Shown here: in pieces, positions 18,937-60,454 of the stretch
Position numbering within the stretch: the stretch's first letter is position 1
Layout of the letters: every line of letters starts with the position of its first letter
Origin: Sipunculus nudus
Taxonomy: Eukaryota > Annelida > Sipuncula > Golfingiida > Sipunculidae
DNA length: 64,000 bases
Reading direction: 5' to 3'
NCBI GenBank assembly: GCA_026874595.1
Contig: CM049316.1
Location: forward strand, 68,656,676 to 68,720,675
Made by a program: the position numbers and the translations under genes
The notes under the pieces: model-generated
What the model was told of the DNA's origin: nothing
Seen by the model: the letters and a program-made list of their open reading frames with translations, nothing else
Databases searched by the model: none

Positions 18937-19323
18937 ATGATGACCCTCAACAAAACATTCATAGCAAGCTAATTGAAGATGAAATTGACACCATTGCAAA
19001 AAAAATGACAGATCCTGTAGGACTATGGTACAATCTTGATCAGAATGGAATTCTCACAGGAGTTGAATCGAAGAGTATTGCTCCAACAAAAGAGGGAATT
19101 CAAATGGCAAAAGCCATATTGTCATTCATGGCTACCAAAGACAGGGAAGTGTTTAATAAGTTCTTAGAAATGACAAAGAAGGATAACAAGATGTTGTATG
19201 ATTATCTTAATGAAAGATTAAATATTTGTGAAGATGGAGACAATATAAGGAACATTGTTGGAGCTGGAGCACTTCATTCCACAGTTCAGCATGGTTCACA
19301 TGAAAGAATAAAGCAGCATCAAG
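18937..19323 (+). CDS. CARD-domain exon, possibly N-terminal part of CYLD
   Basis: The acceptor TTTATTTATAG ends at 18936 and the donor CAAG|GTATAC follows 19323. The 387 bp exon is phase 1 at both ends and open throughout, about 129 residues. Residues about 8 to 90 fit a caspase-recruitment domain: a LIEDEIDTIAKKM helix, then LWYNLDQNGILTGVESKSI (the usual L-x2-G-I/V-L-T-x2-E pattern), then helices with MAKAILSFMATKD and VFNKFLEM. CARDs make homotypic contacts in innate immune and apoptotic assemblies. No other domain is present. It lies 15 kb before the first certain CYLD exon, same strand and matching phase, so it may be the CYLD N-terminus. It could instead be the last exon of another gene, since the frame reads on to TAA at 19356. 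The preceding exon was not found. Confidence 0.75.
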
Positions 19324-19819
19324 GTATACAGAAATATAATATTTTTTATGAACCATAAATGATTCACATATTGTCCACCGACATTTTGAGCATATTTGTT
19401 TTCATTTTCAGTGAGGCCACCATGTTTAAACTGATATTCACTGGCGATCTGTAGACTTGTGGGGTGACACATCATATTTTCTTGCTTTTCTTCATTTCCA
19501 AAGTATAAAAGCACCATGTTATTTCTAAGGGGTGCTACACATAAGACATAACAACCATTGACCTTATAACTTGCATGTAAGCCAATCATTCCCCTCGGCT
19601 CAAATGACTGTAAACATGAGGCTAGATAACAGCCAAAGTTACCCAGATAAGAGTTTTCTTGATACGGTCAACCAAAAAGACTAAGAGACAATTCATATCC
19701 TAACATTTCTGAAGAACTAGGCAGTTGGACGTCAGCTGTTAATTGCTGAAAAACTAACACGCTTTCAGTGTGTTAAAAGATTTGAACATTCATGTAGCCT
19801 GGAAGGTGCTGGCAAATTT
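19324..19819. other. Intergenic or intron sequence after the CARD exon
   Basis: No exon, repeat end or RNA gene is recognised. If the CARD exon were terminal, a polyadenylation signal should be here. No AATAAA is seen in the first 200 bp, which mildly favours splicing onward. Confidence 0.4.
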
Positions 19820-22800
19820 CAACCTCATTATGTGATGGTGTGGCGGCGTCCTTCGTGTGTCGTGCGGTGTGCATCGTATGACGTCTGTGCATTAACCATA
19901 CTTATCTCAAAAACCGCAGGAGCTAGGATCACCAAATTTTTTGCAAATAATCAGTCATCCAAAGAACTATATCAGATTTTATTTTTTTTCTAACTGCATT
20001 TTCTTAGATTTTATAGGGAAAAAGCTAAAAAAGCTTTAAAAATCTTCTTCATCTGAAACTGTTCAGCCAAATTGTCCAATATTTCACAGAAATGATCCCT
20101 GGAACAATCTTTCTCAAGTTTGTTCGAATGGTTTCAGGTCAGAGATTTTTGGCCGAGTTACAGGAGGTTGAACTTTGTTAAATGTGCAAAAAAGCATATT
20201 AAAATTTAACTTTCAGAAACGGCTGGAGCTGTCATCACTAAATTTTATGCCAATGTTGGTCACATGAGTCATATCTGAAATTGAGGTATCGGTGGCGCCA
20301 CCTGCATTGGCCTTTGTTGTACGGGGTCATCAGTGCCTGTATCACACTGAGGGCTACAAAAAACTTCTTCTCTGAAACCATTTGGCAAAAATGTTTAACA
20401 TCACACAGAAATAATCCTAGGGTAGTGCTTTCTGAAGTTTGTTCAAATGGTCTCAGTTCAGTGACTTTTGGCTGAGTTATGGGAAGCTGAATTTAGTCAT
20501 ATGCCATCACATCCCATTTTAGCTAAGTGGCTACAAAGATCTTCTTCTCAAAAACCACTTGGCCAAATTCTTAAATCATTTATCTTTAGATGTTGATAAT
20601 TCAAGTTATTTCAAATTGTTTTGATTCAGTGATTTTTGCTGAGTTATGTGAAGCTTAACTTAGCCATTTTGCTGTTTTCCCATATAAGTTATAAACCTGT
20701 AAAACGTTTTTTGAAAGACCCCACTGAAGCAAATTTGTTTGATATTTTACAAGAATAATCCCCTGAATAATTCTTATAATAATTGTCTTTTATGGTTCCA
20801 AAGAATGAATTTTTGCTGAATCATAAAGATTGAATTGAGTCATTTTACCATATATGTAAGCTGTGTGAAGCAAATAAATCTAGCCTGGAACCAGTTTACC
20901 AGCATCCGTTACATCATGCCTCCAAACATTTAGAAGTCAGGTTATCTTTGGTTAATATTGACAAGAATGTTTTTTAAAAAACTTTTAAAAAATGTAGATT
21001 TATGATTTTAGATATTCCTCATGCCAGGCAATGTTTACAATCACAGGTATACGTTAACCCATACTATTTCAAAAATGACTGGAGCTAGCATCATGAAATT
21101 TAATGCAAAAAATTAGCCATCTGAAAATAATCTGCATTTTCTTAGATTTTATAGAGAAAAAGCTAAAAACCTTTAAAAATCTTCTCCTCTGAAATGGTCA
21201 AGCCAATTTGTTCAATATTTCACAGAAATAATCTTTTATACCATTTCTCTCAAGTTTGTCCAAATGGTTCAAGTTATGTAAATTTTGGCCGAATTACAGG
21301 CAGTTGAACCTAGTCATCTGTCCAAAAAAAGCATACTAAAAAAACAATCTCAGAAACGGCCGGAGCTATCATCACCAAATTTTATGCCATTGTTGGTCAC
21401 ATGAGTCATATATGAAATTCAGGTATTGGTGGCGCCACCTGCATTGACCATTTTTTGTATGGGGGTCATTGGTCATCTGTATATCAACGCATAATTTCTC
21501 AGGAATTGCAGGAGCTACCATCCGCAGATTTTATGCAATTATCTGTCACATATCAAATGTTGTGGAATTCAGCTTAGATTTTATAGAGGAAAAGCTGAAA
21601 AACCTTTAAAAGTCTTCTTGTAAACGGTCCAGCCAAATTATTCAATATTTTACAGAAATGATCCCAGAGGCAAGCACTCTCAAGTTTGTTCAAATGGTTT
21701 GCATTTGATAAATTTTAGTGGAGTTAAAAGAATTTGAACGGTCATTTGGCCAAGTAAGCATACTGAAATAGTTATCTCAGAAATGACAGAAGCTAGCATT
21801 ACCAAGTATTGTGCAAATGTTGGTCACATGACTCATATTTGAAGTTGCAGATTTTGATGTGCCACCTACATTGACCTGTTTTTTATGGGCAAAAACCTCA
21901 TAATTTTAGCCTCTTTAAGCTTAAAATGTTTATGATGAAACTGTCAAGTTGAATCGTTCAATTTTTCAAAAGAATTATCGTAGGACATGGTTCTTACAAT
22001 AATATCAGAAAAACTTAAGTTGGTCTTATGGCCATTATTATGTCTAACTCAAACTGAGGACTGCAAAACTGTTCTTCTACAAAATAATTGTTTCAATTAT
22101 AACTTCTGTTACATGGCAGCAAAATTATTCTTAGGTGACCTTTGTTCAAGTTTACTACTTGAATGATTTTTGGCAGAATTATTGGACCTTTAACAATGAA
22201 AGAACTGAATCTTTTATTTTTCTAGATATTTTGATAAAAAGTTTATGAATATTTCAGCTTGAAAAAAAGCATTTTAGCCAAAGTCTTTCAGTATGTGTAA
22301 ACAGATTTGCCAACAGGCCAAGATTGTCTGTATATTTAAAAAGTGTAAGAAACTGCCAACTGTTTCAGATTTGGCAATAGATCAAGAGTTCATTCAGTGC
22401 AGCCAGATATAGGTCAAGAGTTCAGTCAGTACAGCCAAGCACAAGGCATGTGATCCCCTTATGGGTGACATGTGAACACCTCATGGGCACCATGTGATCA
22501 TCTCATGGGTGTCATGCCCCTCAGGGCTGCATATGGAGCCAATCTATTTATAGCTTTGGCAGACTGCCAACTGCATCAGATTAGCCAACAGGTCAAGAGT
22601 TCACTCAGTGCAGCCAGGTACAGGTCAAAAGTTCACCTAGTCTAACCAGGTGCAGGTCATGAGTTCACTCAGTGCAGTAGCCTGAGCTAGCAAATTTGTC
22701 ACAGTTCACTCGGGGCAACTGCTTTTCTTACCTAAGCGTGGTCAGCCCCATGCATCAGACTTAAGGTAAGTTTGATGTATTGGCCTAATATTTTGACCTG

Positions 22801-24281
22801 TCTATGTGTCTTTGATGGGTTTCTCGTTCACAAAACAGGTGTCACCACCTACAATGACATTTGCACAGTGTGTGACTTTTGTGCTTGCTTATTTCTATAG
22901 AGGAATTTGATATATCATCCTGAAATTGGGCATATTTATACCTATCATATTTTAAATTATCGTATACTTGTTGTATACAAGACTGGTGATGCCACCTACA
23001 ATAATTTTTTGCACAGTGTGTGTCCCTGCTTATTTCTCAGGAGGGGTTTGATATGTCAGTCTGAACTTGGGCATATGTATATATATCTGAAACGTTTTAG
23101 TATATAAGACTGGTGGTGCCGGCTACAATCATTTTTAGCTCAGCTGACTGTAAGTCAACTGAGGTATAGGAATGGTGCTTTGTCCGTCGTCTGTCTGGAC
23201 GTCCGCTGTCCGTTAGCAGGGAACAAATCATAACAGCTGGTTCTAGAAACTTCTAAGTGAACATCCAGGGAGGTCAATTAAAAATTTCCTTGGAAACCTG
23301 AAATTAGGTCACTGCGATGCCCTATACTAATCACCCTGTCTGTCAGTCTGTCTGTTTGTATGTCTGTCTGTCTGTCAATCCGTCCATCCACACAAAGTAG
23401 TTTCCAGATGATAACTCCAGATTAGTTTGGTATATTGGTTCCAAACTTAACTTATTAATGGCCCACCACTAAAGTAAGAACCATGTTGATTTTGGGGTCC
23501 AACGGGCAAAGGTCAAGGTCACAGGACCCATTTCTTTAAAAGGAATGCATATGCATTTGAAGCCAAACTTTTCATCGCAAATCTTCCATCTTCAAGATAT
23601 TGCTAACCTGCCACTAGGGGAAGATTCTGTTTGACTTTTGGGTAAAAGGTCAAGGTCACAGAGACCATCCATTCACTATCCTGCTTTGGATAGACAGACT
23701 GGCTTCAAACTTGATTTAATAATGACCAACCACATATGTAAATTCATTTTGATTTTCAGGGTCCAGCGATCTAAGTTGAAGGTCACGGAAGCCACATCTT
23801 TAAAAAGTTTGTGGATTCACTGTAAATCAAACTTTTCATCCTGAACTTTCCAACGTTCACACATGGCTTACTTGCCCAAAGTGAGGAACCCTGTAGAATT
23901 TGAGGTTATCTGGTCAGAGGTCAAGGTCACTTTTTAAAAGATTTTTACAATAATCCTAATGCTGCAAGTCCAAGGATATTAAGTTCTAAGATTTTTTGGT
24001 TACAAGGTCATTGGTAAAGGTCACAGGACTGTCATTCTGAAAAATTTCTTTCAAAATATCCTTCTAGACAAATTCAACTGAGCGTTGAGACCCATGGGTC
24101 CCTAGTTGTGTTGTGTGCACCCATGCCAGAATTTCAGCAGTGATGTTTGTGTAATTGTTTCTGATTCAAAATGTTTTGTACCTGCATTGTTCACATACAT
24201 GAGAAGTCATGGTCCAGCATTGAAGCATTATACCTGGTGTATTTCCCAATGCACAGGTTTGCATTAGGCCTGTAGGCCTTG
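19820..24281 (+). mobile_element. Family C element with nested E
   Basis: The degraded 5' end lies near 19820 (TGTGATGGTGTGGCGGCGTC). Core units follow with GGTGGCGCCACC at 20291-20302 and 21428-21439, then a block of AAGAGTTCA-TCAGTGCAGCCAG repeats (22380-22690). The 3' end is GCACAGGTTTGC, AGGCCTGTAGGCCT and CTTG at 24281. It is very similar to 49087-56905, including a nested E at the same site. Confidence 0.7.
23137..24105 (+). mobile_element. Family E element nested in C
   Basis: It starts AGCTCAGCTGACTG, with GTCAACTGAG closing the hairpin, and ends CAACTGAGCGTTGAGACCC, ATGGGTCCCTAG. The flanks CTACAATCATTTTT and TTGTGTTGTGTGCACCC rejoin to the uninterrupted CTACAATCATTTTTGTGTTG at about 29912. 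The core has CAAAGGTCAAGGTCAC-type motifs in five decayed units. Confidence 0.75.
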
Positions 24282-24289
24282 TTGGGTTA

Positions 24290-25957
24290 AAACTTGATAA
24301 TTTGAAAATAGTCATGCTACATTTTCTATCTTTGTCAATTTTAAAGCTACAGACGTCTGGTTTTGGTCATTATGAAGCTGATAGGCAGCTTGACATGATA
24401 AAATGAAAGTCTCACCAAATTTTGCACTAGATCTGGTCAAAGGTGAAAAAATGAGATTTCACGGAAATGCTTATAACTCAGCGACTTTTTAAGCTAGACC
24501 TGTCTGGTTTTCGGCATTTCGTAACATTTTGCCAGGCTGACATGAAAAAACTGCAAGACTGGCCAAATCTCGCATCATATCTCGTTTAATGAGAAAAAAC
24601 GAGATTTCGCGAAAATACTTATAACTCGGCGACTTTTACAGCTACACAGGTCTAGTTTTCGGTATTTCGTAACATTTTGCCAGTTTGACATGATAAAACT
24701 ACAAGTCTCATCAAATCTCGCACCATCTCGTCAAATGAGAAAAAAACAAGATATCATGGAAATGCTTATAACTAGGCGACTTTTACAGCTACTCAGGTCC
24801 AGCTTACGGCATTTGGTAACATTTGGCCAACTTGACATAGTAAAACTGCGAGACTGGCCAAATCTTGCACCATATCTGGTCAAATGTGGAAAAACAATAT
24901 TTCACAGAAATGCATATAAGTCGGCGACTTTTTAACATTTTGCCAGCTTGACATTATAAAACCGCAAGACTGGCCAAATCTTGCATTATATCTCGTTTAA
25001 CAAGAAAAAACGAGATTTCACGGAAATGCTTATAACTCAGCGACTTTTACAGCTACACAGGACTGGTTTTCGGCATTTCTAAACATATAACCAGCTTGGC
25101 ATGCCTGAAAAGAAATCAGGCCAAATCTCGCACCATATCGCGTCAAGAGAGAAAAAACGAGATATATAATGGAAATGCTTATAACTAGGCAACTTTTACA
25201 GCTACTCAAGTCTAGCTTTCGGTATTTGGTATCATTTGGCCAACTTGACATAGTAAAACTGCGAGACTGGCCAAATCTCGCACTATATCTGGTCAAATGT
25301 GGAAAAACGAGATTGAACAGAAATGCATACAAGTCGGCAACTTTTACGGCTAGACAGGTCTAGTTTTTGGCATTTCATAACATTTGGACGGCTTGACATG
25401 ACAAACCTGCAAGACTGGCCAAATCTTGCACCATATCTCGTCAAACAATAAAAAACAAGATTTCACAGAAATGCTAATAACTCAGCGACTTTTAAAGCTA
25501 GACAGGTCTAGTTTTTGGCATTTCATAACATTTGGCCAGCTTGACATGACAAATCTGAAAACTTCTCACTGCTTCTTGCAAATTGTCAAACGAGATTAAC
25601 AGAATTTCATGGAAATGTTAGAACTTGGTCCCTTTTACACTAGAAAGGTATGCAGCTATTTCAGGTCAGCTTGCATACATAAACATATTATTCGTTTCTG
25701 CTGCCCCCACAATGTTGCTCATTCATATGACTGTTTCTACATGCACTCTCTGTCTATCTGTCTGTATTATTTCCATTTCCGGCAAGTGCGTGACCTCTGA
25801 TCATCTGGTTAAATTGTTTTTTTTTGTTCTAAGTGTTTAGTACTTGCATTGTTCATATGCATGTTACACATGTTCTTGAAAAGTAATGGTCTAGCATTGA
25901 AGCATTATACCTTGTGTAATCCGATTTCACAGGTTCGAATTAGGCCTGTAGGCCTTG
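24290..25957 (+). repeat. 147 bp tandem array ending in a family C 3' end
   Basis: Eight units start with GCGACTTTTACAGCTA-like words at about 24481, 24629, 24776, 24922, 25039, 25188, 25335 and 25485. The spacing is close to 147 bp except for one shortened unit. Each unit carries GAGATTTCACGGAAATGCTT, ACATTTTGCCAGCTTGACAT and AAGACTGGCCAAATCTCGCA. After about 25800 the sequence is C 3' end (ACAGGTTCGAATTAGGCCTG, TAGGCCTTG). No 5' terminus is seen. The core differs from the other C copies. Confidence 0.75.
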
Positions 25958-27810
25958 TCTAAGATTCTTGGAAAAAAAGGCAACCAATAACAGACATACT
26001 TATGCAGAGCGGTAGCAGCACCTGGCGTCTGTTGGAGAGACTAGGACTGTTTCATCAGTTCCTGCAGACTGGGAAACACCTGGATTTTTAGCAATCCTGT
26101 GAGCTTATGCAATGGTGTGGCGTCGTCCGGCATCTGGCGTCTGGTGTCCGGCGTCTGGCGTCTGTACGTTAGCCCATACTATCTTAAAAATGGCAAGAGT
26201 TGGCATCACGAAATTTTATGCAAAGAATTAATCATCTAAAAAACTCTATCAGATTTTGCTTATTTTTTGGCTAACTGCATTTTCTTAGATTTCTCAGAAA
26301 TGGCCAGAGCTTTCATTACCAAATTTTATGCCAGTGTTGGTCACATGAGTTATATATGAAATTCAGGTATTGGTGGCGCCACCTGCATTGACCTATTTTT
26401 GTACAGGGGTCATTGGTCAACTGTACATTAACCCATAATTTCTCAGGAATAGCAGGAGTACCATCCCCAGATTTTATGCAATAATCTCTCACATATCAAA
26501 TGTTGTGGGATTCAGCTTATTTTTTTATTATCTGCATTTACTTAAATTTTATAGGGAAAAGGCTGAAAAACCTTCAAAAGTCTTCTGCTTGTAAAAGGTC
26601 AAGCCAAATTGTTCAATATTTTACAGAAATGATCGCAGAGGCAACCCTTCTCAAGTTTGTTCAAATGGTTTGCATTTGATGAATTTTAGCAGAATTACAC
26701 AAATTTGAACTTAGTTATTTGGCCAAGTAAGCATACTGACATAGTAATCTCAGAAACGACAGAACCTAGCATTACCAAGTTTTGTGCAAATGTTGGTCAC
26801 ATGACTCATATTTGAAGTTTCAGATTTTGTGTTGCCACCTACATTGACCTGGTTTTTATTTGCAAAAAACTCATAAATTTAACCTCTTTCAGCTGATAAT
26901 GTTTATGATGAAACTGTCAAGTCGAATCGTTCAATTTTTCAAAAGAATTATCCTAGGACATGGTTCTTTCAATCATATAAGAATAGATTGAGTTTGTTGA
27001 TTTTTGGTTGAGTCGTGAAAAGGTTAAGTTGGTCTTATGGCCATTATTATGTCTATTTCAAACTGAGGAATGCAATAGTGTTCTTCTACAAAATTGTTGT
27101 TTCAATTATAACTTCTGGGACATTGCACAAAAATTATTCTTAGGTGGCCTTTGTTAGTGAACCTGTGAGCTTATGCCATGGCGCAGCATTGTCCATCCGT
27201 CGTCATTAATTTAGATTTTATTGAGAAAAAGCTTAAAAATCTTCTTCTCTGAAAATGTCCAGCCAAATTGTCCAATATCTCACACAGAATTGATCCCTGG
27301 AACAATCTCTCTCAAGTTTGTTCAAATGGTTCCAGTTCGGAGTTTTTTGGCCAAGTTACAGAAGGTTGAACTTAGTCATCTGTCCAAAAAAGCACACTAA
27401 AATTAAAATCTCAGAAAAGGCTAGAGCTATAATGACCAAATTTTATACCAATGTTTGTCAAATATGTCATATCTGATTTCGAGGTATTGGTGGCGTCACC
27501 TACATTGATGTGTTTTTTTTTCAAACGAAAATGTAATTTTAAACTCTTCTAGCTTATACACTGATTCATGATGAAACTGTTAGCTGATTGGTTTAAACTT
27601 TACAAGATTTATTCTATGGTAGGGTTCTGCCAGTTTTATAAAAATAGATTGGGTAAATACAGTTTTAAAAAAGCATTGTAGCCAATTGAAAAAAGCTTTC
27701 TGTATTTGAAAACAGATTGGACTTCATACTGAGTTTGAGCAGCCAAGTCATGAGGTAACTCAGTACAAACAGGTGGGGACCAGACATCACCATGGCAACT
27801 GACCTGGCTC

Positions 27811-27830
27811 GGGGGGGGGGGGGGGGGGGG
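27811..27830. repeat. Poly(G) tract of 20
   Basis: A pure run of G after GACCTGGCTC. The related copy near 43011 has TGTCTGGTGTCTAGAC here instead, so the run arose in this copy or is an assembly artefact. Confidence 0.9.
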
Positions 27831-28029
27831 TGTCTAGACAATCTGACACAATGTTTAGATGCAGAATTCCCAGATTATTGGAACTATATCTTTCAACTGT
27901 TTGAAAAAACTTGGTTTGCATTTAAAGCGAATCGGGGTTTATCATCAGGTCACATGTGAACTACTGCAACCTAATTTTTGGTTGACCTCTGACCTTTCCT
28001 TCCTGCTAGCGTCCGTTTTTGCGTCTGTT

Positions 28030-28990
28030 TCCACACATAAACCCACATATCTCCGGAACCGTTTGACCGATCAGGCTAAAAATTTTGCACAAATATAGCC
28101 CTTTGATAGCTTTATAACATACACTAAAAATGGTGGAGCCACCTGCAACCATTTTTGCACAGTGTCCATCTGTTCATCTGCCTTCGGATAATATTACTCA
28201 TATCTCAGAAGTGGTTTGACTTATCCACCTGAAATTTTACAGGTTTATACATCCTGGACAGCTTTCTCGATTTTATGACAGGTGGCGCCACCTACATTCA
28301 CATTTACTCTGCAGACATCCAAGCTCATATCTCGGGAACCCTTTGACCGATTGGGCCAAAATTTTGCATGTGTATAGATCTTACATAGCTCTTCATCATA
28401 GGCAAAACTGGTGGCACCACCTGCAACCACTTATGCACAGCGTCCATCTGTTTCGGATAATATCACTCATATCTCAGCAGTGGTTTGACATATCCACCTG
28501 ATATTTTGAAGGTTTATACATCCTTGACAGCTTTCTCGATTTTATGACAGGTGACGCCACCTACATTCACATATACTCTGCAGACATCCAAGCTCATATC
28601 CCGGGAACCCTTTGCCGATTGAGCCAAAATTTTGCATGTGTATAGATCTCACATAGCTCTTCATCTTAGGCAAAACTGGTGGGGCCACCTGCAACCATAT
28701 ATGCACAGCGTCCATCTGTTCATCTGCCTTGGGATAAAATTACTCATATCTCAGCAGTGGTTTGAGTTATCCACCTTAAATTTTGCAGGTTTATACATCC
28801 TGGACAGCTTTCTTGATTTTATGACAGGTGGCGCCACCTTCATTCACGTTTACTCTGCAGACATCCAAGCTCATATCTTGGGAACTGTTTGACCGATTAG
28901 GCCAAAATTTTGCACGTGTATAGATCTCACAAAGCTCTTCATCTTAGGCAAAACTGGTGGCGCCAACTGCAACCATTAATGCACAGCATC
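28030..28990 (+). repeat. Family A 278 bp tandem array
   Basis: Three and a half units. Each contains CATATCTC-GGAACC-TTTGACCGAT, CAAAATTTTGCATGTGTATAG, a GGTGGCGCCACC-type palindrome before TGCAACCAT, and a second palindrome after TTTTATGACA. Exact palindromes are at 28281-28292 and 28827-28838. The antisense frames look protein-like but repeat with the units. Confidence 0.75.
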
Positions 28991-30716
28991 CATCTGTTCA
29001 TTCAGTGCAGCCAGATATAGGTCAAGAGCTCAGTCAGTGCAGCCAAGCACAAGGCATGTGATCACTGCATGGGTGTCATGTGAACACCTCATTGCCAGTA
29101 TGTGATCACCTCATGGGTAGCATGTGATCACCTCATGGGTGTCATGCCCCTCAGGGCTGCATGTGGAGCCAATCTGTGAGCTTATGTAATGATGTGGCTA
29201 CTATTTCAGATTTGGCAACAGGCCAAAGGTCAGTCTGGATCTATTTATAGCTTCGGCAGACTGCCAACTGTATCAGATTAGGTAACTGGTCAAGAGTTCA
29301 CTCAGTGCAGCTAGGTACGGGTCAAAAGTTCACTAATGTCTGGCTAGTTCACTCAGTTCAGTAGCTGCATTCTATTTATAGCGTTGGCAGACTGCCCACT
29401 GTGTCAGATTATGCAACAGGTCAAGAGTACACTCAGTGCAGCCAGGTTCAGGTCAAAAGTTCACTCAGTCTAGCCAGGTGCAGGTCGTGAGTTCACTTAG
29501 TGCAGAAGCCTGAGCTAGCAATTTGTCACAGTTCACTTGGGGCAACTGCCTTTCTCACCTAAGCCTGGTCAGCCCCATGCATCAGACTCAAGGTAAGTCT
29601 GATGTATTGGCCTGATATATTTGCCTGTCTGTGATGGCTTTCTTGTTCACAAGACAGGTGTCGCCACCTACAATGACTTGCACAATGTATGTGCCTCCTT
29701 ATTTCTACAGAGGAATTTGATATAATCAGCCTGAAATTGGGCATATTTATACATATCGAATAGCTTTGTCATATACAAGACTGGTGGTGCCACCTACAGT
29801 AATTTTTGCACAGTGTTTCCTGCTTATTTTTGAGGAGGGGTTTGATATATCAGTCTGAAATTGTGCTTATGTATATATCTCTGATAGCTTTGTTGCAGTG
29901 GTGGTGCCAGCTACAATCATTTTTGTGTTGTGTGCACCCATACGTGAATTTCACCAGTGATGTTTGTGTAATTGTTTCATATTCAAAATGTTTAGTACTT
30001 GCATAGTTCATATACATGAAAAGGAATGGTCCAGTATTGAAGAATTATACCTTGTGTATTTCCCAATGCACAGGTTTGCATTAGGCCTGTAGGCCTTGTT
30101 ATCTCTATTTGTGAGACCTTCAAAGATGCAGTGATCTATTAACAGGGTACAAATTGTAACCATTCAACCTGGAATCCTCTAATTTAACATTGAGGTAGGT
30201 TCATTTAAAATCTCCTTTGAAACAAGAAATTAGGTCTCTGTAACCCATATCCTTGGAGCTTAGTTCCTAAGGGTTTGTAAATACCCCTCAGTATAATTAA
30301 AAATTAGATACAAAACCTCCAGTTTTTGAAAAACTGATGCATTGATCACCATGAACTTTGCATGCATATTCATCATGGACTGTTTCATCAGTTCCTGCAG
30401 ACTGGTGGCGCCTGCTGGATTAAAAAAAAATTTTACGCATCTTTTTTTCTATTTTTGAGACCTTAAAGATGCAGTTGTTCATCAACAGAGTACAAAAAGT
30501 AATCATTCCACGTATAATCTTCTAATTTAACATCCAGGGAGGTCCATCAAAATCTCCTTGGAAACCAGAAATTAAGTCTCTGTAACCCATATTCTTCAAG
30601 CTATAATGCTTCAGTGAACTAGGGATGCCACCTACAAGATTTGGCATTCAGATGAAAAATTTCGTTTTGTGAACGGCTTCCAAGTCAGCTGAGTGTCATG
30701 ACCCAGGGGTCACTTG

Positions 30717-33700
30717 TCTCATTATTTTGTCTGATTTTCAAACATGCTGAGCTATTATGATGGATTCTCGTCTGTTGTTTAGCCTTTCACCAGCACACTT
30801 TTAATTTTATTGACATAAAGCAGTTCTTAGTGTAATCTTATTGGCAACCTGAATTCACTCAGTATAATGTATACTACAGGTTATTCATTGTAAGTACATT
30901 AAACCACAAATCTGAGCAGATCTGAGCAGTTTATGAAGATGCAGAACATTAGTTGTGTATTGGCTCTTGACTTTTACATTATATTCTTATTTAAGTTCAG
31001 CTGACAAGAAGTTGACTGAGCTCTAGTAATGGTCCTCTGTAAGCTTTCTCTTTTTCGATCTGTTAAAATGACACATTTTGAAAGTGTTGGACCTACAAAT
31101 CTCAAATTCAACTTATATAATAAATGAAAACAAAAAATTGAAAGTCCGGACAAATTATATCCAAATTAACCTTCCCTGAGAAAGTGATATGATTCTTCTA
31201 ATTTGGCAGACTAAAAAATACAAATCCAACATGTAAAACAATGAAAACAATAAAATGCAAGTTTGAGTGAAAAGGTTATAGTAATAATAGTAATAATAAA
31301 ACAAATTTTTATGTTACGCATACCTCCAGTCTACCAAAGAGGCAAAGGTTGGTTAAGAGCAATCAGCATATTAAGTTGGATGAAAATTTATGAAAACATT
31401 TATGAGAAAAATGACTTTCATTTTTTAACAATACACAATAAATGTTCTACATCATAAACATTTTGAAAATATGTCCTCTACAGTTTTAAAAACCAACTGA
31501 GGCAAATTTCTTCAAATTTGCAAGGTGAAAATATATGCTTTAATTAGGCACGTTCTTTAATTTAAAGCAATTTGTTTGCTAGTCAAAAAATGTGACATGA
31601 TTTCAGTAATTTCTAGATCTGAAAGTACAAGTGGAATGTTTAAAACTAAAAATATAGGCAGAAATCTTGCATTGCTGAAAGGGCTATCAAATGTCAATTA
31701 GGTTAACACAGTTGACATCAATTCACACATTCAGTAATGAGGTATATCTTGCATAAGATATGTTTTGCAAATGTTCTATTTGTAGTTTTAAAATGTAGCC
31801 ATTGTATCACATAGTTTTGAAGAAGTGGCTGACCCATTATCCTTCAAATTGACATTGGTGTCATGGATATATGTGTAAATGGTACACATTATTTCAAAGT
31901 GTAAAAGAAATGAAAATGATTTGTTGGTTGGGTGCAGCCAGTAACATGATTGGTTGCACCTTTGAGTTTGAAAAGTATGAGAATTTATTTTTAATTTGTA
32001 AAAATGAAAAAAAAGAGCATGCAGGTTTATGTAGCATTACCAGGCGTTATGACAAGGGTGTCCAAGATAAATCAGACTCCTAGATTACAGGACAATCCAT
32101 TCACCCACAACTAAATTGTGTAAAGTGTAAAAGTAATACATGTTCTATAACCTACAGCTATCTTGGCTGATATACTTCATATTTCTTACAGAAAGCTTGG
32201 AAAGATATACACACAAAATTCTGGTTTTTCTGATTGGGTACAGACATTTCTGTATAAATTCTTTCCCATCTTTTTGTATATCAGCATGCATGGCTACAAT
32301 ATCATTTGTACTAATACTGCATATGCAAACAAGTATGTTGTGGTGATGATTTTATTAAAAATCATCTGCAAATATGTTTTTCTATGAGTTTAAAAACAAC
32401 GTAGCTTCAAAAATTAGGTTATGGACCCCTAATTTTGGTTTTTCAAGGAAATATCCCAGTGACTGAGCCTAAGCTTCTACTAGGCCAAGTTAGAACTAAA
32501 TTTCTTGGTCAGGCAATCATACTTTTAGCCTGGATAACAGAAGGATGACAGGGCAAACATACTGACATTAAGACTCATAGGTATAGATCAGTGTGACTTA
32601 AATAAGTGCTCCTTGCAAAATTTATCTTTGATCTTCGCCTTTGAAGTGAACTTAGCATTAAAAATGTTATAAATTGTATAAGCTCAAAGTTGTAGTACGG
32701 TAAAGTATATATCCTCAAAGTATTATTGTTCCAATCCACATATGTATCCAGGGTTTTTCAAGAGCCTAAAACATTATTAGTATTTGCAATTCCATGTCTG
32801 TTTAGACTAAATGTAGCATTACAATCATATTAGAAAAAAATATGGAAAGGGCTTTCCTGTATAAATTAAGCATGATATATTTGTTACATGTATTTATCCT
32901 TTGAAATAACCATGCATATACTTCACGAATAGTCACACTTTGTCTGACTTAAAACTACCCCCTACCTCTAATATGCCATATTTAGACCATGATTTAAACT
33001 TGAATATGGTTTAAAGTCAATCTTTTGACTAAACCCAGACTAAAAGTTAGTCCACCTTTCTGCATTTGGAGCCCCTGCGTATCCAAAAAATTGGCCTATC
33101 AACTAAGGCATTGCTCCTTTGAATGTTTCACTGATCTCTGAAGTTAGACTTTTCTTGGCTGGTCTCCATAACGTGTTTCAATATAGTACAGATACTTGCA
33201 TTGCTTAATGCTGCAAACTTTTTACTTAAGATCAAGACAGGTCCTGGAAAAGTTTAATTTTCAAATCTAAGCAGAAAACAATTTGATCTCATGAAAGTAA
33301 GATGAGCAATATTCATATCTGTTTGGCCTAGAAACATGTAACTTTAGATCAAGACAGGTTCTTGCAAAGTTTACCTTTAAACCAAAAATTAGATCACAGT
33401 GACCTTAAATAAGTGAGCTACATGCAAAAACATTTTAGTACCCTGAAAGTCAGACAGTGCTTAAATTGTACCTGTTGGACCAAGAAACTTCATACACAAA
33501 ATCTGTTGGACTCCTGATGGAGCCCCCTTTTATATCAAGAACTAGGTCACTGTGACCTACCAGTATATACCATGACTTTCTAAAATCACAAAGTTTGTCA
33601 TATCACAAATCATAACTGTAAGACCTAGAATCTTTTACCTTAATTCTAACTTAAAATTCAGGGAGGTTCATTGTGATATCTCCTGAAATACATGAAATTA

Positions 33701-34480
33701 GGTAATTCTGATCCATATAATGTAAGTTGTTGGATAAAAACATGGTTTGAGCACCCTGGAATTCTGATATGCCCATTGGCGTCACATGGTTTGCAAAGGT
33801 TTAGGGGGACAACACCTTTACCAAGCTTGAAACATTGTGAGAACTATAAGCATATATATATAGCATGTATATGGCCTATTTATCAGGGTTTTCGCCATGA
33901 TTTTTCACAGTGTAAGGCAGATTTATAAACATACCTGTATGTGAATGGAGGTTTCAGGGGGGCTTTAGGAGGGTCAGGGGAGCTATAGAGCTAATACAGC
34001 ATGCCAAAATACTACAGAGTGCTATTTAAGACAACAGAATTTTGCAGTCAATACAGTACTCTTTATTATGAATACGTCCTGTAATCAGTAAAATAAAATG
34101 TGTAAAAAGTGTGGGGGGGACCCCTACCTGTAGATGCCCATGGATGTGCCTACCTGGTAATTTTTAACAGATGACTCTGGAAACTTGAATTTGAAATAAT
34201 ATGCCACTTTTATGCATTAATTCAGATCTGCCAGAATGTGTGAAAGTTCGAACATAATTTACCCAACCAATTCTGCAAAAATGTCACAAAGACTTGTATT
34301 TCATCTGAGTTTTCCAGTTTGTGTAAAAGTTCATATATACATTCTCATATCTCAATAATTAATGCATGGAATATCCTTATTACAGTTCAGCTGATTGTCA
34401 TTGCCTATGGTCACCTTGTTTATCATTAAAGTTGTTTTTTAAAAGGTTTAATAAAGCACATGTATACTTTAAAGCTGCAG
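30717..34480. other. Mostly unique AT-rich intron or intergenic stretch
   Basis: It is less repetitive than its surroundings. A decayed E 5' end (GTTCAGCTGACAAGAAGTTG, then ACTGAGCTCTAG) lies near 30995, and E-like units occur at 33120-33720. A phase 1/1 open segment at 31938-32024 is listed separately. No RNA gene was recognised. Confidence 0.5.
31938..32024 (+). CDS. Possible 87 bp exon between CARD and CAP-Gly exons
   Basis: The segment follows GGTGCAG and precedes GTTTAT. It is phase 1 at both ends, so it could sit between the exons ending at 19323 and starting at 34481 without breaking the frame. It encodes about 29 residues with MIGCTFEFEKYENLFLICK, charged at the C-terminus. The polypyrimidine tract is poor and the donor weak, and I see no family match. 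The segment is part of a 70-codon open frame, which may be chance in AT-rich DNA. Confidence 0.15.
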
Positions 34481-34830
34481 AACAAGAGACTGATGGGAAG
34501 ACTCATTCATTGCCACATGTATATACATTAGAGGACCAGCAGCAGAAGGGAAAATGTGGGGCAAAGAAAATAAAGTTACCTCAAGGAAGCTTGCAAGAAC
34601 AAATGGGTACTGAAGGTGCAAAGAGGGAGATACCTCGCAAAGTTGCAGTTAAGAAAGAAGCTGATAAAACTGAGAGATCTCCAATGGCACTTGATGCAAA
34701 AGCCCTAAATTTACCCTTTGATGTTGGACATATGGTAGAAGTGAATATATCAGGTGAACCAGTTTATGGCGTGATCCGTTGGATTGGCTACTATATTGAT
34801 CCTCAAAAGCCAATAGCAGGCATAGAGATG
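34481..34830 (+). CDS. CYLD: CYLD deubiquitinase, linker and first half of CAP-Gly domain
   Basis: The acceptor GCTGCAG ends at 34480 and the donor ATG|GTAAGT follows 34830. The exon starts in phase 1 and ends in phase 0 (about 117 residues). The first 75 residues are a Lys/Glu/Gln-rich linker with no recognised domain. The end, FDVGHMVEVN then VYGVIRWIGYY and AGIEM, matches the third CAP-Gly domain of vertebrate CYLD, where the same segments read VGSLAEVK, FYGVIRWIG and AGLEL. In vertebrates that domain binds NEMO, bringing the enzyme to NF-kB signalling complexes. The two more N-terminal CAP-Gly domains of the human protein are not seen upstream in this window. The frame continues at 41856. 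Confidence 0.93.
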
Positions 34831-41855: not shown

Positions 41856-42003
41856 GACACACCAACAGAGGCTGGAACTGATGGAAAGTACATGAATAAA
41901 AGATTATTCTCCTGTCCACCAAAGAGAGCCATGTTTATGTTTATGGACAAGTGCAAGAAGGACAGTCGGTTTGAAGAAGAGCCAGACATACAGAACAATT
42001 TAG
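41856..42003 (+). CDS. CYLD: CYLD deubiquitinase, second half of CAP-Gly domain
   Basis: The acceptor TTTTTAATTGTATAG ends at 41855 and the donor TTAG|GTGATT follows 42003. Starting in phase 0 and ending in phase 1, it encodes about 49 residues. TDGKYMNKRLFSCPPKRAMF followed by KCKKDSRF aligns without gaps to the human CYLD segment with TDG, RYFTC and CRPDSRF, the C-terminal strands of the third CAP-Gly domain. The family's usual GKNDG signature is GTDGK here, as expected for this CYLD domain rather than for tubulin-tail-binding CAP-Gly proteins. It follows the exon ending at 34830. Confidence 0.95.
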
Positions 42004-46589: not shown

Positions 46590-46845
46590 ATGGTAGCCGA
46601 CTACCAGGTATACAGGGCTTTAAAGAACCAATCAAACAATATGCCATTGAAGGACTGCTTGGTTTGAATAGAGGTATACAAGGACATCATAATTCTTGTT
46701 ACCTGGATTCAACATTGTTTTGCATGTTTTCCTTTGCTGATGTTTTTGATGAGATTCTCAACCGGCCTAAAGGAAAACATGATGTTGATGAATATACGAA
46801 CGTACAGACTGTGCTCAAGGAACGCATTGTGAACAGACTCAGAAG
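46590..46845 (+). CDS. CYLD: CYLD deubiquitinase, start of USP domain with catalytic Cys
   Basis: The acceptor TTTTATTCAG ends at 46589 and the donor AGAAG|GTTTGC follows 46845. It runs from phase 1 to phase 2, about 85 residues. After a linker (KEPIKQYAIEGLLGLNRG) comes the USP cysteine box GIQGHHNSCYLDSTLFCMF, differing from human at a few positions; the catalytic cysteine codon is 46697-46699. NRPKGKHDVDEY and the IVNRLRR end also match the human order. The enzyme cleaves Lys63- and Met1-linked ubiquitin chains, damping NF-kB and related signalling in the cytoplasm. The asparagine preceding NSC, typical of the USP oxyanion region, is kept, so activity is expected if the histidine box beyond the window is intact. 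Confidence 0.97.
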
Positions 46846-47716: not shown

Positions 47717-47808
47717 TGAGTTTCTGGTGCCAGCAGGCCAAGTGATGCTGTTACGTGACCAGCTTGATAAGCTGAGTCCAGTCCAGGGATTGAGAAGTGA
47801 AGAGAAAG
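47717..47808 (+). CDS. CYLD: CYLD deubiquitinase, USP domain exon
   Basis: The acceptor CTTTTTTTCTTGATAG ends at 47716 and the donor AAAG|GTTTGT follows 47808. It runs from phase 2 to phase 1, encoding about 31 residues ending in GLRSEEK. VMLLRDQLDKLSPVQGLRSE aligns with human CYLD KIMKLRKILEKVEA followed by GFTSEEK, a helix of the thumb region. It is too short for an ORF search but fits exactly between its neighbours in phase and homology. Confidence 0.92.
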
Positions 47809-48155: not shown

Positions 48156-48222
48156 ATCCAGAAGAATTTCTGAATTGCCTGTTGAATCATGTTATGAAAG
48201 CAGAACCATTTGTCAGATTAAG
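48156..48222 (+). CDS. CYLD: CYLD deubiquitinase, USP domain exon
   Basis: The acceptor TTCTGTTTTAG ends at 48155 and the donor TTAAG|GTAATT follows 48222. It runs from phase 1 to phase 2, about 22 residues. DPEEFLNCLLNHVMKAEP then FVRLR closely matches human DPEEFLNILFHHILRVEP. This is the conserved USP segment placing the substrate-side helix. The intron before it is only 347 bp, while the one after it is 12.1 kb and filled by nested repeats starting 24 bp past the donor. Confidence 0.95.
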
Positions 48223-60333: not shown

Positions 60334-60454
60334 CTCTGGGGAAAATTGCCATTTTTACCAACTGTTTGTGGAAAGAGATGAGAGTTTGATCATGCCTACC
60401 ACACAAAGACTCCTGGGCCTCTCATTCATGTATTCAGATGTCAAATTTGTAGAG
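60334..60454 (+). CDS. CYLD: CYLD deubiquitinase, USP domain exon
   Basis: The acceptor CTGTCATTTCCAG ends at 60333 and the donor GTAGAG|GTATGT follows 60454. It runs from phase 2 to phase 0, about 40 residues. CHFYQLFVERDESLIMPTTQ, then LLGLSFMYSDVKFVE, matches human [20 protein letters not shown] then LLEWSFINSNLKFAE. This is the end of the palm segment before the B-box-like zinc insertion peculiar to CYLD. The next exon, with the zinc ligands, and the later catalytic histidine are not in the window, so the gene runs off the right edge. Confidence 0.96.

Follow-up and report, generated by a model that had tools for sequence, protein, structure and literature searches.

Does a CARD encoded upstream of a CYLD-type deubiquitinase in the genome of Sipunculus nudus belong to the same protein, or do two genes lie side by side? 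The stretch that raises this question, referred to here as the window, comprises 64,000 nucleotides (C11:68656676-68720675, where C11 is contig CM049316.1 of the 1.43 Gb genome), and an earlier note on it had proposed a CARD-CYLD fusion with one CARD at the N-terminus. In innate immunity, the building of CARD filaments goes together with that of ubiquitin chains, and the vertebrate eraser is recruited through adaptors. The putative fusion was tested on genomic sequence, via paralogous loci of the same genome. We conclude with good confidence that the CARD exon is part of the CYLD gene, and that this CYLD probably carries several symmetric CARD exons (phase 1-1) inserted in the linker between CAP-Gly2 and CAP-Gly3; of this gene, the window would then contain the last CARD together with CAP-Gly3 and the greater part of the USP domain.

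The CARD exon (positions 18937-19323 of the window) lies on the same strand as the CYLD exons, is preceded by AG and followed by GT, and is in phase 1 at both ends. As the earlier note had read it, this exon encodes a CARD: the Pfam expectation value (E) was 6.8e-6 and the score 26.5 bits, above the cut-off of 23.9 bits. Within the joined reading of 473 amino acids (aa) described below, the domain scored 23.3 bits, slightly below the cut-off. When the exon alone was compared with solved structures no CARD was recovered, the two matches being an engineered protein (E 0.0022) and MzrA (E 1.2). A profile built from the window CARD and four paralogous exons matched CARD8 (4.4e-6), APAF1 (0.0017), RAIDD (0.0064), NLRC4 (0.011), NOD1 (entered as CARD4; 0.014) and BCL10 (0.11), and among its 45 matches to E 10 the few non-CARD chains appeared from E 0.2 upward. 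Ten further CARD exons all gave the Pfam CARD at E <0.01, four of them above the cut-off, and in a control in which a 16-member CARD profile was run on the reversed sequence of the same loci the best E was 0.44. A chance resemblance to a CARD is ruled out by the Pfam score, the five-exon profile and this control. The exon also looks like one under selection, because the ratio of nonsynonymous to synonymous changes (dN/dS) relative to its nearest paralog (C11:68854865, 55% identical) is 0.45, while the 600-base flanks on each side are unalignable beyond 29 bases. There is no methionine (Met) ahead of the domain, and an upstream exon is therefore required.

On the downstream side, the CARD exon and the six CYLD exons of the window could be joined at AG/GT sites with matching phases into 473 codons that contain no stop. 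The CYLD exon that the earlier note had started in phase 1 at 34481 does join in frame, though other AGs in the open frame of exon 34481-34830 would give other phases; with the acceptor at 34481 the exon begins in phase 1, and this CAP-Gly exon therefore needs an upstream coding exon. The best PDB matches of the CAP-Gly3 exon pair were the CYLD CAP-Gly chains 7owc, 7owd and 1ixd (E 7.6e-14 to 2.2e-13, with 7owc at 7.6e-14), which we take to be the third CAP-Gly of CYLD, and in the joined protein this domain scored 43.1 bits with Pfam. The joined USP part, extended by one exon beyond the window, matched CYLD 2vhf with E 4.1e-61 over 195 query residues; the other three of the four matches in this structure search were chains titled 'Uncharacterized protein', presumably zebrafish CYLD. 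The motifs NSCYLD, SHYVSF and VFFDSM carry cysteine (Cys), histidine (His) and aspartate (Asp), respectively, with the His/Asp exon outside the window; we assume that the catalytic residues are among them, and, judged from these motifs, the enzyme appears to have its full set of Cys, His and Asp. Searched up to 68730675 with a simple cysteine motif, the gene showed no B-box inside the USP domain; one may lie in 68730676-68739000, beyond the stretch covered. A close copy of the USP part of the window gene adjoins it (C11:68782992-68820323), with the first USP exon 88% and the last exon 92% identical.

Whether the CARD and the deubiquitinase belong to one gene was examined in the relatives of this gene in the same genome. 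Fourteen CYLD-type CAP-Gly loci were sampled (A, B, C, D, J, K, M, N, P, R, S17, T, U and the window), omitting two CAP-Gly matches on C13 and second CAP-Glys of the same loci; the sequence examined upstream of the CAP-Gly ranged from 1.3 kb (locus N) to 34 kb (window). A same-strand CARD was present no more than 16 kb upstream of the CAP-Gly in eight loci (A, B, C, K, M, N, R and the window). At locus A (C11:68276001-68302000), two CARDs, the CAP-Gly, the USP, the His/Asp exon and the last exon follow one another on one strand within ~15 kb (68284871-68299585), the phases being read as 1-1, 1-1 and 1-0 for the two CARDs and the CAP-Gly. Locus R, on the minus strand, packs three CARDs followed by the CAP-Gly into 4.5 kb, and at locus K an in-frame Met directly precedes the first CARD, followed by a CARD and the CAP-Gly, in ~3 kb altogether. 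The implied CARD-to-CAP-Gly introns, measured between the CARD donor selected and the AGs of the open frame of the CAP-Gly, were 0.35-0.51 kb in N, 0.49-0.75 kb in K, 0.80-0.87 kb in M, 1.25-1.34 kb in A and 1.32-1.47 kb in R; at that spacing one gene could hardly end and another begin. Locus C may be a decayed copy, and hence a weaker witness: its His/Asp exon has an in-frame stop, and its 20 kb yielded neither a second CAP-Gly half nor a first USP exon. The fusion is thus well supported by paralogous loci.

The form in which it had been proposed, with one CARD at the N-terminus, is probably wrong, since further CARDs lie upstream (68578427, which is weak, 68581362, 68625617 and 68637749) and a CYLD N-terminus is found at 68484106. 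Based on pairwise scores, with no tree, the CARDs were assigned to three classes: alpha (68581362, R1, K1, J, N2 and M2), beta (68625617, 68637749, K2, N1, M1 and R2) and gamma (window, C, B, A1, A2 and R3, of which R3 and the A pair are weak members). Before the window CAP-Gly the order, over 94 kb, is alpha 68581362, beta 68625617, beta 68637749 and gamma 68675612, and it is matched in the compact locus R, where alpha, beta and gamma precede the CAP-Gly. The weak CARD at C11:68578427, ahead of the alpha exon, had an E of 0.027; the reversed control was never below 0.44. A phase-1 acceptor option was available in 16/16 CARD exons and a phase-1 donor option in 15, to which the weak GTATAC of the window is added; 8 of the 15 exons with listed donors also allow other phases, so that the phase test is weak, and symmetric exons are consistent with it and unproven. 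Classically, exon shuffling involves symmetric exons that sit between phase-1 introns, and if the CARD exons are symmetric, the skipping of any one would keep the frame.

Where, then, does the gene begin? A CYLD N-terminus, which has a start codon and covers CAP-Gly1 as well as the first half of CAP-Gly2, is located at C11:68484106-68491443, on the same strand and 190 kb upstream of the CARD exon. Its CAP-Gly1 matched CYLD 1whl, presumably the first CAP-Gly of CYLD, with E 8.3e-14 (next chain, 9.9e-8), and the first half of CAP-Gly2 had a best PDB match of only E 0.87 (CYLD 1ixd). Genome searches gave no match to a CAP-Gly3 or USP between this N-terminus and those of the window, and by this exclusion we lean towards the simplest reading, one gene of ~258 kb, which would comprise CAP-Gly1, CAP-Gly2, four or five CARDs, CAP-Gly3 and USP and whose first exon would therefore lie outside the window. 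It is possible, if doubtful, that the gene instead starts at or before a CARD exon and that the 68484106 N-terminus is a separate, truncated gene. Two full CYLD N-termini (68484106 and locus J) plus a decayed piece at 68336445 were found in the genome, and this piece, which lies downstream of locus A, is the only CYLD N-terminus found near that locus. A start at a CARD would also suit the Met of locus K, the in-frame Met near the domain start of the alpha exon 68581362, the 87 kb between CAP-Gly2 and the first, weak CARD, and gene J, in which such an N-terminus is followed by CAP-Glys and ends in a CARD, with no USP. However, the beta exon 68625617, like the window exon, has no Met before its domain, and no other C-terminal half for the 68484106 N-terminus was found by the genome searches.

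Several observations weigh against a single gene with CARDs in its linker. The CARD-to-CAP-Gly intron in the window would be 15.2 kb, and the implied whole gene is very large; 10640 of the 15157 bases of the gap are repeat-masked, and a first exon could be hidden there. The donor of the window CARD, GTATAC, is weak, and the single-sequence fold prediction of the exon (predicted local distance difference test, pLDDT, 57.8) was uninformative, being too poor for a structure search or a six-helix verdict. Not every locus shows the pairing: D, P, S17, T and U had no CARD in the 7.5 to 13.6 kb examined upstream of the CAP-Gly, and at locus J the CARD is downstream of it. Neither tblastn between loci E and J nor a motif search recovered the second half of CAP-Gly2. 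The interval 68512001-68578000 and several others between it and the window went unread, and weak matches can escape the genome search. The repetitive gap, the weak donor and the five loci that showed no CARD in the upstream stretch examined would suit two adjacent genes, one for a multi-CARD adaptor, ending after 19323, and one for a CYLD with its first exon inside the 15 kb gap. Such an arrangement is rather improbable, as the introns of ~0.35 to 1.5 kb in N, K, M, A and R leave little space for an end, a promoter and a first exon, and the CAP-Gly exon with the acceptor at 34481 requires a coding exon before it. The earlier remark that no terminator is evident between the two exons is weak evidence. 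Ten long open frames in and near the gap had no domain better than E 0.087, and a nested gene there was rejected. The bridge exon that had been suggested at 31938-32024 is unmasked; it had no match in the comparison with the four paralogous loci A-D and was discarded. Of the 64000 bases of the window, 39987 were masked because they recur within the sampled loci, which is consistent with very long introns.

Exons assigned to the CYLD gene in the window and beyond it (positions of the window unless preceded by C11)
Feature	Position	Strand	Evidence
CARD exon, class gamma, phase 1-1	18937..19323 = C11:68675612-68675998	+	Pfam CARD, profile vs solved CARDs, AG/GT, no stop
Linker end and first half of CAP-Gly3, phase 1-0	34481..34830	+	joined with next exon, PDB CYLD CAP-Gly matches
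Second half of CAP-Gly3, phase 0-1	41856..42003	+	hidden Markov model 5.4e-25 (model includes this exon); in-frame join
USP exon 1, presumed catalytic Cys (NSCYLD), phase 1-2	46590..46845	+	CYLD 2vhf E 2.8e-20
USP exon 2, phase 2-1	47717..47808	+	tblastn to paralog I; splice sites; joined USP vs 2vhf
USP exon 3 (DPEEFL...), phase 1-2	48156..48222	+	tblastn to paralog I; splice sites; joined USP vs 2vhf
USP exon 4, phase 2-0	60334..60454	+	paralog comparison, tblastn, splice sites
Next USP exon, beyond window	C11:68723545	+	gene continues past window
His/Asp exon (SHYVSF, VFFDSM), beyond window	C11:68740887	+	assigned by order
Last exon, stop at C11:68742659	beyond window	+	gene end

The family is heterogeneous, and more than one gain or loss of CARDs is probable. 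The catalytic Cys is replaced by serine (Ser) in paralogs A and D (C11:68290889 and 68967199) and is kept in the window gene, H and I, and the open frames of J, M and N stop shortly after a CARD located past the CAP-Glys. Frames of this kind, with a stop soon after a CARD, were seen in the CAP-Gly genes at C11:29879233, 69312786 and 69355738 (minus strand), near which the USP searches found no match. CYLD-like CAP-Gly matches were also observed at C13:35732205 and 35737236, one of them within an open frame of 309 aa. The genome search for CARDs recovered in addition two CARD frames, mostly 275 and 230 aa long, in ~fifty dispersed copies apiece with near-equal scores, usually ~3.4 kb apart and on opposite strands; in the copy examined, L035 (C11:144801-149600), one frame encodes just a CARD and the other a CARD and the start of a RING finger. 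This pair is perhaps a mobile or viral element with IAP-like CARD genes, IAPs being E3 ligases.

Both CYLD and the CARD are old, and their combination is a variant of CYLD rather than a system of a new kind. Among the open-access papers listed in the searches there was no CARD-bearing CYLD, which does not prove that none has been published. Human CYLD has three CAP-Glys, of which the third, CAP-Gly3, binds NEMO and is preceded by a TRAF motif and two proline-rich motifs, and the available parts of that account mention no CARD (PMC10320722). The window gene is alike in the succession of CAP-Gly3 and USP, in Cys, His and Asp, and probably in a CAP-Gly1 N-terminus in the same gene; it differs, as far as those parts describe the human protein, in having CARDs in the linker region where the latter has the proline-rich and TRAF motifs. 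The nearest precedent found is that of the lophotrochozoan RIG-I-like receptors, immune genes that gained N-terminal death-fold domains via exon changes (PMC8998645), whereas here an eraser, and not a receptor with an N-terminal graft, would have received them. The oyster paracaspase cleaves human CYLD at R324 (PMC5978004), so that complexes of CARD, BCL10 and paracaspase are also tied to CYLD, there by proteolysis, with CYLD as the substrate and no CARD of its own mentioned in the portion available. In oyster and clam the IAP family is reported to have expanded and acquired new domain architectures (PMC8917759, PMC7831173), which is a comparable bivalve expansion of ubiquitin regulators, but not of deubiquitinases.

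What might the CARDs do in an eraser? Their most likely role is that of an address, and it is a reasonable inference that they would direct CYLD to CARD assemblies. The CARDs in the linker would bind assemblies of the BCL10, MAVS or NOD type, CAP-Gly3, as a likely NEMO or ubiquitin contact, would help to hold the enzyme there, and the USP would remove the Lys63 or Met1 chains built at these assemblies, which would end NF-kB or antiviral signalling. Splicing of symmetric CARD exons could choose which assemblies are targeted. The paralogs with Ser (A and D) and those with a terminal CARD (J, M and N) would bind the same assemblies without cutting. A second tie is possible through paracaspase cleavage in the linker region that carries the CARDs; R324 presumably lies within the linker of human CYLD, going by the position of CAP-Gly2. 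Alternatively, the CARDs may work within the protein, by self-assembly or by autoinhibition of the USP, instead of guiding it to other CARD filaments, which we consider unlikely; several CARDs per protein could stack mutually, and the two paralogs without the catalytic Cys still keep the USP sequence.

In the boldest reading, this lineage would have made a CARD-guided CYLD eraser with four or five linker CARDs, parts of which would have spread as a clustered family; the active forms (window gene, H and I), those with Ser (A and D) and those with a terminal CARD in the place of the USP (J, M and N) would compete for CARD assemblies and would tune the end or the shielding of ubiquitin signals, a proposal that we regard as evenly balanced between right and wrong. 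If CYLD does carry CARDs of its own, the link between CARDs and a ubiquitin eraser can be made in cis, the Ser-bearing and USP-less variants are natural controls, and the partners of each CARD would reveal the CARD assemblies that are served by invertebrate CYLD.

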